Part shown: in pieces, positions 23,809 through 36,466 of the stretch | Layout of the letters: each line of letters starts with the position of its first letter | Numbering within the stretch: the stretch's first letter is position 1 | NCBI GenBank assembly: GCA_947385365.1 | Contig: CANDKT010000004.1 | Coordinates: 1-46,573, forward strand | DNA length: 46,573 nt | Direction of reading: 5' to 3' | Source of the DNA: an uncultured Bacillota bacterium | Lineage (GTDB): Bacteria; Bacillota; Clostridia; Oscillospirales; Oscillospiraceae | Notes under the pieces: model-generated | Told to the model about the DNA's origin: nothing | The model's input: only the letters and a program-made list of their open reading frames with translations | Databases searched by the model: none | Position numbers and translations under genes: made by a program

Positions 23809-23885
23809 TGGTGGACCTGAAGGGGATCGAACCCTCGAACCTCACGGATGCGAACCGTGCGCTCTCCCAGCTGAGCTACAGGCCC
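23809..23885 (-). tRNA. tRNA-Ala (CGC anticodon)
   Basis: A complete cloverleaf on the minus strand. The acceptor is GGGCCTG/CAGGTCC with the alanine identity wobble pair G3-U70. The D arm is GCTC/GAGC and the anticodon arm CACGG-TTCGCAT-CCGTG (anticodon CGC). The T arm is GAGGG-TTCGATC-CCCTT, the discriminator is A and CCA is encoded. The variable loop AGGTTC is 6 nt, one longer than usual. It reads GCG codons. It has its own promoter and terminator. Confidence 0.93.
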
Positions 23886-32802: not shown

Positions 32803-35098
32803 CCGGAGCGGAACGTTCCTCGGCTTCCTGGCCTTCGTCCTGAGCGTCTCGCTGCTGCTGGACGGAGCGGTCTACTTCGGGAACGCGCTTGGTTCCGCCA
32901 GCGGGCGGCGGCAGATAGCGGACAGTTTCGCGGCGGATTGGCGGGACAGCGGCGCGTTCCGTCAGTTCGTCGGCTCCCGCCTGGAAACGCTCATCACGAT
33001 GGGCGCGGGAGGTCTCGTCTACGGCTACGACGGCTATTGGGACATCAACCGTGAAAATTACTACAAGATCAACAGCAATCGTTCCCAAGCCATCCACGAC
33101 AAGTGGAAGGACGACAAAAACGTCCTCTACACCGTCGCCAAAGACGGCGAAACGCTCTACAGCAACAGCGAAACGCTCCACACGTCCACCGCGCCCGCCG
33201 GGCTGCCGGAAGGGTACAGTTTCCTGCTCCAGTTCGACGGCGCGAAGGTCCGCGCCTGGAAAAACGGCTCCGAACTGGACCTCTACGGCGACGGCTACTA
33301 CCGCTACGACAGCGCGGAAAGCGAACTGCAATGGTACCTCCCCGGTTACCGGAACTTCACCGTAGACGAGGCCGGCGCGAAAGTCCGCGTGACGATGGCC
33401 GTCATCGACGTCCCACAAACGTTCGTTCGAGGCAGCTACGGCAAGGACGGCACGCAATACTACAACGAACTGTACTACGTCAAGCAAAACTTAGCCGATT
33501 GCCGCGCCGCTGTGAGCGCGCACGGGATACGTCTGGCTCTCGGCGCGGGGCTGTTCCTACTGTACGTGGTCCTGCGCCGCGGCAAACGTCAGGCCGATCA
33601 AGTCCTAGCCCGCTGGACCGGGAAGCTCTGGTTCGAAGCAAAACTTCTGCTGACCGTGTCCGTCGTGTTCCTCTTCCTACCCCGCCCGGCGTACTTGGGA
33701 CAGGTCTGGTCCGAGTTGACTTACGCCTACGCCCCCACCGTCGCAATCAGCGGCGGTTCCGCGTCCACCGCGTCGGATGTTGATGTTGGAATCATACAAG
33801 AAGACGTTCAGACCTACGAGATCCCTATGGAGGCGTATCAGGAACAGACGGACCGCTTCGGCAGAGCCATGACTATCCTCTCCGAAAACGGCGGCTGGCT
33901 GCTGCGGGAGTACCTCGGCGAGCTGGCCCAAGCGACTGCGAACCTGCTGGTGATCTTCTGGACGGTCTACCTGCTGGTCTTCAACGACTGGCGGTATAAT
34001 CCCGGCTTCTGGAAACACGGCGTATTCGGCCTGATCGCCGCAGGCGAATCCAAATACCCGCTCCAAAAACAACTGCGCCGTATGAACGGCTTCTTCGGGT
34101 TAGCGGTGGGGACGCTGTGGCTGGAAACGTTATCGCTGCTGGTTTTGCAGACCGTGCGCGCTTACCTGCCCGCGTGGTTCATCTGGAACTTACTGGGTCT
34201 GCCTTGGCTGTTGTCCGCGGTGGTGTGGGGGTGGTTCTACCGGCGTCAGAAACGGCTGTGGCAGGATTTCGGCGCGGTGTCGGAACAGCTCGCCGCGATA
34301 CGAAACGGGTCCTTGACCGACGACCTGCTCCTGCCTGAAGACGCCGGACTGTACCAAATGGCCGACGACCTGAACCACATCCGTCAGGGACTCCACCAGG
34401 CCGTGGAAGAACGTACCCAGAGCGAACGCATGAAAGTGGAACTCGTCACCAACGTCTCCCACGACCTGAAAACCCCGCTGACCTCCATCCTCAGCTACAC
34501 GGAGCTTCTGGCTCAGGAACCGCTGGAACCTCCCGCCAGCGAGTACGTCCAGATCATGAGCCAGAAAGCCCAGCGGCTCAAGGCGATGGTCCAGGACGTC
34601 TTCGAGGTCAGCAAAGCCGCCTCCGGACAGCTCCCTGTGAAACTGGAACGTCTGGATTACGCCCGCCTGCTCCGCCAGACGCTGGCCGATATGGCGCAGG
34701 CAATCGAAGCCAGCGGCTTGACCTTCCGCACGGACCTCCCCGAAACGGAAGTCCCTATCACCGCCGACAGCGACCGCTTGTACCGCGTCTTCCAGAACCT
34801 CATCGGCAACGCCTTGAAATACTCCCTGCCCGGCTCCCGCGTCTACCTGAACCTGTCCGTGGAACACGGTTCGGCTACCGCCAGCGTCCGCAACACCTCC
34901 GCCGAGGAGCTGAAACCAGGCGTGGAATACACCGCACGCTTTGTCCGCGGCGACGAGAGCCGTTCCGATGGCGGCTCCGGACTCGGCTTGTCCATCGCCC
35001 AGTCCTTCGCCCAAGCCTGCGGCGGGGAACTCTCCGTTTCCACCGACGCCGACCTCTTTACCGCTGCCGTCACTTTCCCACTGGGCGAAAATCTATAG
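32777..35098 (+). CDS. Multi-pass sensor histidine kinase
   Basis: A 773-residue kinase. TM1 (about 14-33) and a large extracytoplasmic domain (about 35-248) precede two helices (250-268, 286-304). A second outer loop (about 305-383), further helices (385-402, 437-460, 466-487) and a HAMP-like linker follow. The core has SHDLKTP (phospho-acceptor His562), N-box NLIGNALKY (from 674) and G-box GSGLGLSIAQ (from 733). The first available start is TTG 32777, inside the regulator gene, with a poor SD, so the exact start is uncertain. The two-loop, six-helix sensor is unusual for an OmpR-type partner. The ligand is unknown. Confidence 0.9.
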   Translation: MDTKWKKSSRSGTFLGFLAFVLSVSLLLDGAVYFGNALGSASGRRQIADSFAADWRDSGAFRQFVGSRLETLITMGAGGLVYGYDGYWDINRENYYKINSNRSQAIHDKWKDDKNVLYTVAKDGETLYSNSETLHTSTAPAGLPEGYSFLLQFDGAKVRAWKNGSELDLYGDGYYRYDSAESELQWYLPGYRNFTVDEAGAKVRVTMAVIDVPQTFVRGSYGKDGTQYYNELYYVKQNLADCRAAVSAHGIRLALGAGLFLLYVVLRRGKRQADQVLARWTGKLWFEAKLLLTVSVVFLFLPRPAYLGQVWSELTYAYAPTVAISGGSASTASDVDVGIIQEDVQTYEIPMEAYQEQTDRFGRAMTILSENGGWLLREYLGELAQATANLLVIFWTVYLLVFNDWRYNPGFWKHGVFGLIAAGESKYPLQKQLRRMNGFFGLAVGTLWLETLSLLVLQTVRAYLPAWFIWNLLGLPWLLSAVVWGWFYRRQKRLWQDFGAVSEQLAAIRNGSLTDDLLLPEDAGLYQMADDLNHIRQGLHQAVEERTQSERMKVELVTNVSHDLKTPLTSILSYTELLAQEPLEPPASEYVQIMSQKAQRLKAMVQDVFEVSKAASGQLPVKLERLDYARLLRQTLADMAQAIEASGLTFRTDLPETEVPITADSDRLYRVFQNLIGNALKYSLPGSRVYLNLSVEHGSATASVRNTSAEELKPGVEYTARFVRGDESRSDGGSGLGLSIAQSFAQACGGELSVSTDADLFTAAVTFPLGENL

Positions 35099-35117
35099 AA
35101 AAAGACGCTTGCCAAAC

Positions 35118-35147
35118 TTGACAAAACGTCCGCTTACCGTGTATAAT
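35118..35147 (+). promoter_or_regulatory. Consensus promoter, plus-strand RNA of module 1
   Basis: A perfect TTGACA (35118-35123), an 18-bp spacer and a perfect TATAAT (35142-35147). Confidence 0.85.
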
Positions 35148-35153
35148 AGTTGA

Positions 35154-35247
35154 CGGAAGGGCATCGTTACAGACGGTCAGCCCTTACAGTTTGGCAAAGA
35201 AATTTCTATGCTGACTGCTCGTGCCACCGGGCAGTCAGCACGCTTTT
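35154..35247 (+). ncRNA. Candidate antisense RNA, module 1
   Basis: A predicted transcript of about 94 nt runs from the consensus promoter to a terminator-like hairpin TGCTGACTGC/GCAGTCAGCA (35209-35218 with 35231-35240) followed by CGCTTTT. No ORF with an SD is seen. Its 3' end is complementary to the 3' end and stop-codon region of the peptide gene on the other strand. It begins with GGAAGGGCATCGTTACA, which also occurs, with one change, in the 5' leader of the opposing transcript. The ends are predicted only. Confidence 0.6.
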
Positions 35248-35330
35248 GGGGCCGTGAGTACCGTCACCAAAACGGTGAACATCACGCACAGCACAAAGCG
35301 GAGGACTTTCATCCAACGCTTATCACCCAT
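35235..35330 (-). CDS. 31-residue hydrophobic peptide, type I toxin-like, module 1
   Basis: On the minus strand a 31-codon ORF encodes a peptide starting MGDKRWMKVLRF, with a single membrane-spanning stretch (about residues 9-26) and the end TAPKAC. The SD AAGGGGGTGA is near-consensus and 5 nt before the ATG. CACCCCC (35337-35343), covering most of the SD on the plus strand, can pair with GGGAGTG (35351-35357), so in the mRNA the SD is closed in a hairpin. Its promoter is consensus and the leader is about 80 nt. The stop codon lies within the shared terminator stem. The pattern is that of type I toxins (TxpA, BsrG). No named family recognised and toxicity is unproven. Confidence 0.55.
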   Translation of the reverse strand: MGDKRWMKVLRFVLCVMFTVLVTVLTAPKAC

Positions 35331-35417
35331 CAGCCTCACCCCCTTTTCCAGGGAGTGGCCAACCGCCTTTATGTAACAATGCCCTTCCGGCCTCCGCCTG
35401 ACGGCGTCGGCATCCCT

Positions 35418-35447
35418 ATTATACCAAATCACATCGCTATTTGTCAA
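35418..35447 (-). promoter_or_regulatory. Consensus promoter of peptide gene, module 1
   Basis: On the minus strand TTGACA (35442-35447), an 18-bp spacer and TATAAT (35418-35423). Confidence 0.85.
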
Positions 35448-35483
35448 ATCTTACCGCTCGCTTGGACACATTTGTATTAAAGA

Positions 35484-35500
35484 GCTTTTTGTATTCTCCC
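35484..35500 (+). repeat. Half palindromic repeat between the two modules
   Basis: GCTTTTTGTATTCTCCC is the left arm of the dispersed palindrome family without a right arm. It marks the join between the two tandem modules. Confidence 0.55.
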
Positions 35501-35524
35501 TTGAAAAAAGACGCTTTGCCAAAC

Positions 35525-35554
35525 TTGACAAAACGCCCGCTTACCGTGTATAAT
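35525..35554 (+). promoter_or_regulatory. Consensus promoter, plus-strand RNA of module 2
   Basis: TTGACA (35525-35530), an 18-bp spacer and TATAAT (35549-35554). Confidence 0.85.
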
Positions 35555-35560
35555 AATTGA

Positions 35561-35652
35561 CGGAAGGGCATCGTTACGGACGGTCAGCCCAAATCAATCA
35601 GAATAGGAACCTATGCTGACTGCTCGCGCTACCGGGCAGTCAGCACGCTTTT
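35561..35652 (+). ncRNA. Candidate antisense RNA, module 2
   Basis: The equivalent of the module 1 RNA, about 92 nt, ending at the hairpin TGCTGACTGC/GCAGTCAGCA (35614-35623 with 35636-35645) and CGCTTTT. Its 5' motif is conserved, but about 30 nt in the middle (around 35584-35611) do not match module 1. Two bases of the hairpin loop also differ. Confidence 0.58.
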
Positions 35653-35735
35653 GGGGCCGTGAGTACCGTCACCAAAACGGTGAACATCACGCACAGCACA
35701 AAGCGGAGGACTTTCATCCAACGCTTATCACCCAT
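35640..35735 (-). CDS. 31-residue hydrophobic peptide, type I toxin-like, module 2
   Basis: It encodes the same 31-residue peptide as module 1, with the same SD, hairpin (35742-35748 with 35756-35762) and leader. The frame is open upstream for 85 codons, but those codons run through the promoter and leader and lack an SD, so the short ORF is chosen. The perfect identity of the copies points to recent duplication or gene conversion. Confidence 0.55.
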   Translation of the reverse strand: MGDKRWMKVLRFVLCVMFTVLVTVLTAPKAC

Positions 35736-35822
35736 CAGCCTCACCCCCTTTTCCAGGGAGTGGCCAACCGCCTTTATGTAACAATGCCCTTCCGGCCTCC
35801 GCCTGACGGCGTCGGCATCCCT

Positions 35823-35852
35823 ATTATAGCAAATCAGAGCGCGAATTGTCAA
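35823..35852 (-). promoter_or_regulatory. Consensus promoter of peptide gene, module 2
   Basis: On the minus strand TTGACA (35847-35852), an 18-bp spacer and TATAAT (35823-35828). Confidence 0.85.
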
Positions 35853-35914
35853 ATCCCGCCGCCCATTCGGGCGGCGTTTTACTTGGAGCAATTCCAATTT
35901 AGGATTGTTTTTCT

Positions 35915-35943
35915 GCGGCGGCGCATGTATAATAGAAGCAGAA
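35915..35943 (+). promoter_or_regulatory. Promoter of the Lrp-aminotransferase-thrH operon
   Basis: TTGTTT (35915-35920), a 17-bp spacer and TATAAT (35938-35943), about 44 bp upstream of the Lrp-family ATG. Confidence 0.75.
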
Positions 35944-35986
35944 ACCGCCGCCTGCCCAAACGGACCGGCGCGAAACGGAGGAAACT

Positions 35987-36466
35987 ATGGAAAAGCTGCT
36001 GGAATTGCTGGAACAGGATTGCACGATGCCTGTGGAACAGTTGGCGGCCGCCTTGGGCGAACCGCCCGAGGCGGTACGGGCCGCGCTCAAACAGTACGAG
36101 AAGGACCGCGTAATCTTAGGCTACCAGGCCGTCATCGACTGGGACCAGATCCGCCGGGAGACCGTCACCGCGTTGATTGAGGTCAACGTCACGCCGCAGT
36201 CCATCGACGGCTTCGACCGGATCGCCGAGCGGATCTACCAGTACGACGAGGTGGAGAGTATGTACCTGATGAGCGGGTCCTTCGACCTGACCGTCATCGT
36301 CTCCGGACGCACGCTCCGGGAAGTGGCGCAGTTCGTCGCGTCGCGGCTGGCTCCGATTCAGGGCGTCACCGGCACCGCCACCCACTTCATCCTGAAAAAA
36401 TACAAAGAAAAACATCTGGTGTTCCGCCCCCAGGACCCGGAGGAAAAGGAGTTTATTTTCGTATGA
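35987..36466 (+). CDS. Lrp/AsnC-family transcriptional regulator
   Basis: A 159-residue regulator with an N-terminal winged-helix (about 1-50; TMPVEQLAAALGEPPEAVRA) and a C-terminal RAM/AsnC effector domain (about 62-145; TALIEVNVTPQ, GSFDLTVIVSG). These proteins usually sense amino acids. The GGAGGA SD lies before the ATG. Its stop overlaps the aminotransferase start (ATGA), a common pairing, so it probably controls its own operon in response to an amino acid. Confidence 0.9.
   Translation: MEKLLELLEQDCTMPVEQLAAALGEPPEAVRAALKQYEKDRVILGYQAVIDWDQIRRETVTALIEVNVTPQSIDGFDRIAERIYQYDEVESMYLMSGSFDLTVIVSGRTLREVAQFVASRLAPIQGVTGTATHFILKKYKEKHLVFRPQDPEEKEFIFV

Follow-up and report, generated by a model that had tools for sequence, protein, structure and literature searches.

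The DNA analysed here, referred to as the window, comprises positions 1 to 46,573 (46,573 nucleotides, nt) of contig CANDKT010000004.1 from an uncultured Bacillota bacterium of the family Oscillospiraceae (GenBank assembly GCA_947385365.1). It contains two tandem modules, at 35109-35457 and 35516-35862, which probably belong to a new family of type I toxin-antitoxin systems with a putatively clamped toxin mRNA, a nested antitoxin and a proposed address. The modules encode the same peptide and are 96% identical within each of two blocks (75 and 252 nt). The two near-identical copies are set apart by a stretch of about 25 nt, on account of which the repeat finder split them into two blocks. Each module has two opposed promoters of the sigma-70 type, one per strand, reading TTGACA-N18-TATAAT. 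All four match the consensus at 12 of 12 positions with 18-nt spacers, and six promoter-like sites lie in 35000-36000 as compared to a mean of 0.5 in shuffles. The minus strand of both modules carries an open reading frame (ORF) of 31 codons preceded by the Shine-Dalgarno (SD) sequence GGGGGTG. Its product is MGDKRWMKVLRFVLCVMFTVLVTVLTAPKAC, and its TGA stop codon sits within the stem TGCTGACTGC/GCAGTCAGCA. On the other strand, an RNA of about 93 nt is predicted from promoter and RNA structure and is matched by a covariance model. An earlier interpretation made from the letters alone (the sequence-only reading) had described the tandem duplication, the four convergent consensus promoters, the hydrophobic SD-led peptide and the short opposing RNA, and the present analysis agrees with it on all of these. 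Positions of the individual elements are given in Table 1.

The peptides of related modules are 24-33 amino acids (aa) long, have a basic N-terminus and often end in -PKAC. The window peptide reaches a best 15-residue Kyte-Doolittle mean of 2.69, and the distinct peptides average 2.94. Since the 74 reference modules were gathered by a hydrophobic-core and tail pattern, the intact ORF among them is by construction. A search with an RNA model returned 30 loci, and the stem could be located in 29; 26 of these 29 have an SD-led hydrophobic ORF (24-33 codons) ending in the stem, a count not fully independent of the ORF because the RNA model came from peptide-selected modules. Locus L178 is from a genome whose toxins end just upstream of the stem. 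Seven loci found with the antitoxin model (L158, L164, L165, L167, L170, L174, L181) oppose quite different hydrophobic peptides, several of them in genomes unmatched by the peptide profile. Substitutions are rarest at codon position 2 (0.233, as compared to 0.457 and 0.433 at the other positions). Codons 25-31 are the least variable at both kinds of site, with a proportion of synonymous differences (pS) of 0.152 and of non-synonymous differences (pN) of 0.132, as expected for codons that also encode the antitoxin terminator. Judged by these substitution patterns, the constraint on the peptide is frame-specific and falls mostly on hydrophobicity. Conservation of the peptide frame in homologous loci, to which the sequence-only reading had pointed as a check, was thus found, though in modest degree. 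We infer that the peptide is toxic.

Among the 74 modules, 73 have a scorable antitoxin promoter and 72 have both promoters; 71 were used for terminators and mRNA folds. The antitoxin promoter matches the consensus at no fewer than 10 of 12 positions in 71 of 73 modules and the toxin promoter in 55 of 73, a level reached by 0.5-0.6% of shuffles, which here and in the terminator and linker-stem tests preserve base content only, not neighbours. Within the same module the antitoxin promoter is better than the toxin promoter in 49 cases, equal in 16 and worse in 7. The antitoxin alignment and model comprise 58 of the 74 reference RNAs, from a reference set that had excluded loci of a divergent family. 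Over these 58 RNAs 95.6% of the cells of the fold are paired (99.3% in the terminator stem), and none of 500 shuffles gave a covariation score as high.

The direction in which the stop-codon stem terminates is suggested by its T-tracts. An unbroken TTTT within 10 nt follows it in the antitoxin direction in 64 of 81 modules and in the toxin direction in 13 (both in 7). Looser counts separate the directions less clearly, with 67 and 36 modules having 4 of 6 T, and 14 and 19 having 5 of 8 T. The stem looks like the terminator of the antitoxin. In 41 of 71 modules (3.4% of shuffles) a toxin-direction terminator scoring -12 kcal/mol or better is found immediately beyond the antitoxin -10 box, and 35 of these 41 include TGTCAA, the complement of the antitoxin -35 box. 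In the window the best such terminator lies about 100 nt beyond the stop-codon stem, over the antitoxin -35 box. Because of these terminators, and because the long-distance pairing described below requires the mRNA to run that far, the toxin transcription unit appears to enclose the entire antitoxin gene together with its promoter. The whole antitoxin RNA is then probably antisense to the 3' untranslated region (UTR) and last codons of the toxin, the overlap not being confined to the 3' stem. The sequence-only reading had let both RNAs meet at one stem in a convergent 3'-overlap design. The stem does hold the stop codon and a long antisense overlap is retained; what changes is that the toxin RNA probably continues about 100 nt to its own terminator, so that the whole antitoxin is probably covered, and that a 5'-3' interaction within the mRNA is added. 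We had at first taken the stem for a bidirectional terminator, and left this view for a nested antitoxin given the downstream terminators, the mismatch asymmetry and the folds; the T-tracts agree with the change only in part. The idea that the antitoxin RNA itself contains a short coding frame (ATGGCGGTGGCC...) was rejected after inspection by eye of the source-genome copies, as the frame is missing from the window copies and unconserved past four codons.

Two layers of pairing are predicted in the toxin mRNA. The local hairpin CACTCCC/GGGGGTG, in which the SD had already been seen to be paired, retains 97.4% of its pairs across 38 aligned relatives. The toxin leader and the 5' end of the antitoxin moreover share same-sense sequence, which makes the leader complementary to the toxin's own 3' UTR. 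This match averages 26.0 within modules and 17.0 between genomes, and none of 2000 permutations was as high (72 modules). In 63 distinct alignments scoring at least 20, out of the 72 modules, a mismatch leaves a G-U pair in the mRNA in 121 instances and disrupts pairing in 33; counted per genome the figures are 30 and 2, with 9 ties. Pair-breaking transitions occur at 0.017 per column in cognate and 0.039 in non-cognate comparisons, wobble-keeping ones at 0.064 and 0.071. Two long-distance helices remain paired at 85.0% and 97.4%, and 11 of 19 base pairs show substitutions in both partners. None of 500 shuffles attained the covariation score computed for the complete structure. These values come from 38 of 52 mRNAs, the 14 omitted having mostly leaders of other length that align badly, a choice that favours clean columns. 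When whole 3' arms were swapped, pairing fell from 0.918 to a mean of 0.875, with no swap in 5000 as high. Minimum-energy folds contain at least 10 long-distance pairs in 70 of 71 modules, with a mean of 26.1 pairs as compared to 16.8 in chimeras, and RNAalifold, run on 52 modules with distinct ORFs from a chosen list of 31 genomes, selected the pairing between leader and 3' UTR. These tests count related modules as independent, and the per-genome count is the safer figure. Taken together, the sequences support a covarying 5'-3' long-distance interaction of the toxin leader with its own 3' UTR. The shared same-sense motif had first been viewed as a protein site or a kissing hairpin, a view left given the mismatch asymmetry and the folds.

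The stretch distinguishing the two window copies, which the sequence-only reading had missed, corresponds to a hypervariable linker of the antitoxin RNA. Segments could be compared in 81 of 89 modules. Eleven same-host pairs have an ORF identity of at least 0.93; three of them come from one trio, and one (L129/L135) is same-host only by a shared number in the contig names. In these pairs mean identity is 0.97 for ORF and leader, 0.90 for the antitoxin promoter spacer, 0.82 for the toxin promoter spacer, 0.72 for the stem loop and 0.58 for the linker (about 21 nt). In each of the 11 pairs the linker is less conserved than either promoter spacer; background linker identity is 0.488. The two copies of G154, for instance, are 98% identical in the ORF and 64% in the linker. 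Conversely, three cross-host pairs, a narrow base among 3,240, share the linker together with an identical stem loop. L042/L065 (linker 100%, ORF 0.93) are apparently one locus in two species, whereas the ORF is just 0.63 identical in L126/L144 (linker 95%) and 0.74 in L036/L139 (linker 86%). Neutral drift explains the divergence within hosts, but not easily the sharing across hosts; diversification between co-resident copies plus exchange between modules explains both, on the strength of three pairs. Loop and linker may therefore form an address that keeps co-resident modules orthogonal, as read from sequence comparison. The fuller proposition is that the antitoxin RNA defines the family, with a fixed chassis of 5' hairpin and terminator and a swappable address of stem loop and ~21-nt linker that is under diversifying selection and exchanged between modules with different toxins; we think it could equally well prove right or wrong.

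Some further observations concern the linker. In two cases, L129/L135 and L127/L132, a pair of viral contigs apparently from one isolate (by shared numbers in IMG/VR) agree in the peptide but differ in the linker. Positions 35188-35199 in the module 1 linker are a perfect 12-nt inverted copy of 35514-35525, upstream of the second antitoxin promoter; local template switching may be a source of new linkers. In 27 of 81 modules, part of the linker can pair over at least 5 bases with the foot of the terminator stem; swapping the arms leaves a mean of 12.7 such modules and shuffling the linkers 6.4. This count is not relied on, as the arm used includes two linker bases. An alternative hairpin of linker and stem, acting as an anti-terminator-like switch, is possible.

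Table 1. Predicted elements of the two modules in the window
Element	Module	Position	Strand	Basis or remark
Toxin promoter	1	35418..35447	-	promoter scan; TTGACA-N18-TATAAT, TG ahead of -10
Toxin promoter	2	35823..35852	-	promoter scan
Toxin mRNA 5' hairpin	1	35390..35412	-	predicted fold; module 2 counterpart 35795-35817
Toxin leader element H_T	1	35357..35384	-	predicted to pair with the toxin's own 3' UTR at the complement of H_A
Toxin leader element H_T	2	35762..35789	-	inverted repeat and predicted fold
SD-sequestering hairpin CACTCCC...GGGGGTG	1	35337..35357	-	module 2 counterpart 35742-35762
Putative toxin ORF, 31 aa	1	35235..35330	-	ORF and SD
Putative toxin ORF, 31 aa	2	35640..35735	-	ORF and SD
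Antitoxin promoter	1	35118..35147	+	promoter scan
Antitoxin promoter	2	35525..35554	+	promoter scan
Antitoxin RNA	1	35154..35253	+	covariance-model match span, 75.8 bits (copy belongs to the model's own alignment); predicted RNA of ~93 nt inside
Antitoxin RNA	2	35561..35658	+	covariance-model match span, 75.8 bits (copy belongs to the model's own alignment)
Antitoxin 5' hairpin H_A	1	35159..35183	+	complement in toxin mRNA is the H_T partner; module 2: 35566-35590
Hypervariable linker (proposed address)	1	35184..35208	+	segment identity comparison
Hypervariable linker (proposed address)	2	35591..35613	+	segment identity comparison
Antitoxin terminator hairpin hp2	1	35209..35240	+	holds toxin stop codon; loop variable
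Antitoxin terminator hairpin hp2	2	35614..35645	+	
Predicted toxin terminator hairpin	1	35104..35131	-	overlaps antitoxin -35 box
Predicted toxin terminator hairpin	2	35510..35538	-	overlaps antitoxin -35 box

The modules are multicopy at home and patchy among relatives. The source genome (2.69 Mb) has three further places, each holding tandem copies, and amounts to 8 modules with peptide and 9 antitoxin RNAs (covariance model, E 1e-4), with two further weak matches of the antitoxin model at E 0.01. The ninth antitoxin (C15:3552-3648, within L033 3549-3686) has lost the toxin ORF and its -10 box is weakened to TATGAG, so that it may be a remnant of a module or an antitoxin RNA that stands by itself. 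At E <=0.001, a profile built from 37 peptides finds a match in 34 of the 400 family genomes searched, which fall into 20 of 106 genera, and in 17 of 394 genomes from the order. The sequence-only reading had also suggested a covariance-model search across genomes of the family, and the antitoxin model matches 55 of 250 of these at E 0.01 (35 of 106 genera), 30 of the 55 at 1e-6 or better; in the class it matches 3 of 291 genomes at E 1e-4. All these genome counts include the source genome. Within two genera, 3 of 18 and 3 of 20 genomes have the module. Two weak matches of the antitoxin model in another family of the same class (L182 and L183) have a similar layout, other hydrophobic peptides and the leader motif GGTTAGC; judging from these, the module design may be older than the peptide family.

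Modules also occur on viral contigs. Two search patterns returned 22 contig stretches from IMG/VR, 21 of them with a module by scan and some near-duplicates of one another. Ten ORFs from six viral contigs were compared with PHROGs; 8 match families there, 7 of which are named for lysis, tail or connector functions. A tblastn search of 50,697 phage and 72,556 plasmid records with a single 31-aa query gave no match, for so short a query weak evidence of absence. One further locus came from the genome_contigs scan. Rfam, Pfam, NCBIfam and PHROGs hold no convincing match to the module RNA or peptides. The window peptide matches nothing in Pfam and NCBIfam, and the 37 relative peptides gave only weak, scattered matches in Pfam, NCBIfam and PHROGs (best E ~0.02), such as a transmembrane helix can give. 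A snoRNA model from Rfam (E up to 5) was dismissed at 11 bits. The sole Rfam match at gathering threshold within the window is a tRNA gene at 23812-23885 on the minus strand. In the open literature in PubMed Central (PMC), searched by titles and abstract starts and with subscription papers and preprints outside its scope, nothing was recognised as the present family.

The type I reading is supported by the hydrophobic SD-led peptides, the strong opposing promoters, the covarying RNAs, the multicopy tandem arrangement and the presence on phage contigs. A toxin-antisense pair without a named family, as proposed from the sequence at the outset, is still the best reading after comparison of the relatives. 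In the mechanism that we propose, one strand would give an mRNA, of a predicted ~315 nt in the window, whose 31-aa product is hydrophobic with a basic N-terminus and is a putative membrane toxin. The other strand would give the ~93-nt antitoxin RNA, nested in the 3' UTR of the mRNA, wholly complementary to it and mostly made from the better promoter. Full-length mRNA would be inert twice over, by the local SD hairpin and by pairing of leader and 3' UTR; these pairings covary. The antitoxin would probably nucleate at the hypervariable stem loop and linker and then anneal to the 3' UTR, and by analogy with TxpA/RatA the duplex of antitoxin and mRNA would be cut by RNase III. Upon loss of the module, a shorter-lived antitoxin would be depleted, 3' trimming would free the clamp and the peptide would be made, as hok and AapA lead one to expect. 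The loop and linker would serve as a private address that diversifies between co-resident copies and so prevents cross-silencing.

A number of results weigh against this account. The predicted antitoxin does not cover the SD, so that inhibition must act through decay or indirectly. Two of the 29 loci, L175 and L177, are without a peptide by the rule used, and constraint at the protein level is modest, with a pN/pS of 0.67 in codons 2-24 as compared to 0.77 and 1.37 in shifted frames. The antitoxin alignment shows no excess of pair types, since 488 of 500 shuffles equal or exceed their number, and only 2 of 10 pairs of the 5' hairpin changed on both sides. A good toxin-direction terminator is absent, by the rule used, in 30 of 71 modules; by the looser T counts the stop-codon stem might end the toxin mRNA too, and partial termination is possible. 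Chimeras also hold at least 10 long-distance pairs in 221 of 284 cases, so that much of this pairing is owed to the shared consensus, and in the run on 52 mRNAs the RNAalifold covariation term was unfavourable (+4.7). Divergence of the linker could come from relaxed constraint or a mutational hot spot.

This last point, taken as a full explanation, would make the linker simply unconstrained, a site of neutral divergence or a local mutational hot spot without any role in specificity. That same-host linker identity is near background, and that the 12-nt inverted copy in module 1 hints at template switching, fits such a view; greater divergence than in both promoter spacers in every same-host pair, and linkers identical or 86-95% shared in three cross-host pairs, do not, and we hold it to be rather unlikely, though well worth keeping in mind. 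A different doubt concerns the clamp. At the DNA level the leader and the antitoxin 5' end are inverted repeats of each other, and the antitoxin folded alone makes a bulged 5' hairpin from the shared element in most of the folds shown, so that gene conversion between the two repeats, or a protein site common to both, might account for their likeness in place of pairing in the mRNA. Gene conversion alone, however, predicts symmetric mismatches, and those observed are asymmetric: pair-breaking ones are scarcer in cognate comparisons, G-U-keeping ones much less so. With RNAalifold having selected the pairing as well, an origin of this kind is quite improbable.

The product itself could be something other than a toxin, namely a regulatory membrane peptide under antisense control that modulates a membrane process; a regulatory peptide was among the alternatives of the sequence-only reading as well. 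Constraint mostly on hydrophobicity would be compatible with this, and the long ORFs on either side of the modules in the source genome resemble ordinary chromosomal genes (by look, no family search having been run). Layered repression by SD hairpin, long-distance pairing and a strong antisense promoter nevertheless suits a harmful product; the same antitoxin design stands with widely differing peptides, and modules are present in viral contigs where 8 of 10 ORFs tested match PHROGs. A non-toxic role is accordingly improbable in our estimate. Still further down ranks a mobile non-coding repeat, MITE-like (miniature inverted-repeat transposable element) or REP-like (repetitive extragenic palindrome), which the sequence-only reading had kept as an alternative and which would account for the multiple and tandem copies. 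It is opposed by the SD-led ORFs ending in the stem at 26 of 29 RNA-model loci, by the frame-specific constraint with the least change at codon position 2, and by the strong covariation in antitoxin and mRNA, and we give it hardly any credence.

The modules look like members of a family without a name, made up of bacterial self-toxins under RNA control, whose conservation extends to nearly everything but a short stretch of the antitoxin. The nested antitoxin gene, the covarying pairing of leader and 3' UTR and the hypervariable linker and loop are what goes beyond the sequence-only reading. The family is widespread in one clade and was yet missed by the family libraries searched, and it adds to this clade a long-distance clamping of toxin mRNA backed by covariation, with an unusually dense overlap of signals. 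If the proposed layout is true, single stretches of DNA do double or triple duty: the antitoxin terminator encodes the C-terminus and stop of the toxin, the 5' hairpin doubles as the mRNA clamp, and the -35 box lies in the toxin terminator. To our knowledge, it is an open question for RNA antitoxins how toxin-antitoxin copies that are nearly identical keep their independence within a single cell. Natural pairs differing almost only in about 25 nt, such as the window modules, make this independence directly testable. If the address is real, it would correspond, at the RNA level, to the incompatibility groups of plasmids, and would let several addiction modules with one and the same toxin, be they of prophage or chromosomal origin, coexist without cross-silencing.

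The closest kinds among known systems are txpA/RatA, Fst, AapA/IsoA, hok/Sok and Ibs/Sib. In txpA/RatA of a Bacillus subtilis prophage, the antisense RNA has its own promoter and a predicted 3' overlap of ~120 nt, initiation by loop-loop contact has been proposed, and RNase III degrades the duplex (PMC3531473). The present modules resemble TxpA/RatA and BsrG/SR4 in their convergent genes, in the (here predicted) long 3' antisense overlap and in the prophage setting. They differ from TxpA/RatA in the overlap over the antitoxin's full length, in the position of the antitoxin -35 box within the predicted toxin terminator, and in the covarying pairing of leader and 3' UTR. The present peptide has no convincing Pfam or NCBIfam match, its likeness to TxpA being judged by these libraries and not by direct alignment. 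Convergent overlapping pairs are also found in prophages of Clostridioides difficile, namely CD0956.2-RCd10 and relatives, whose antitoxins act mostly on the cognate toxin only, RCd12 acting on CD0977.1 as well despite three mismatches (PMC6563280, PMC7699646). The present modules share the convergent overlap and the prophage presence. By description, the C. difficile toxins have 30-56 aa and a lysine-rich C-terminus, which sets them apart from peptides of 24-33 aa with a basic N-terminus.

In the Fst/Ldr group (par of pAD1), the SD lies in a local stem-loop and an intramolecular helix forms at the 5' end of the toxin RNA (PMC7472228). Both are features of the present mRNA as predicted, together with a short membrane-type peptide and convergent RNAs. 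However, the direct repeats of par make its RNAs complementary, whereas the repeats here are inverted and give 5' regions of the same sense. The par stem also terminates the toxin RNA; the present stem may do so as well, as the TTTT count favours the antitoxin direction but looser T counts separate the two directions poorly. The P/D/S/TXXXG transmembrane motif of most Fst/Ldr members is absent from the window peptide, as read directly. Ibs/Sib of Escherichia coli likewise occur in several copies per genome, and Sib recognises its target through domains termed TRD1 and TRD2 (PMC4147584). Sib covers SD and coding region, in contrast to the predicted antitoxin, which covers only stop codon and 3' UTR. 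In AapA/IsoA of Helicobacter and in hok/Sok, the toxin mRNA is held by a 5'-3' long-distance interaction, and aapA is multicopy on the chromosome (PMC6733600). An interaction of this type in the full-length toxin mRNA (in silico here), a short peptide and several copies are shared with the present family. In AapA the 3' element masks the SD itself, whereas here it is the leader upstream of the SD hairpin that is predicted to pair with the 3' UTR.

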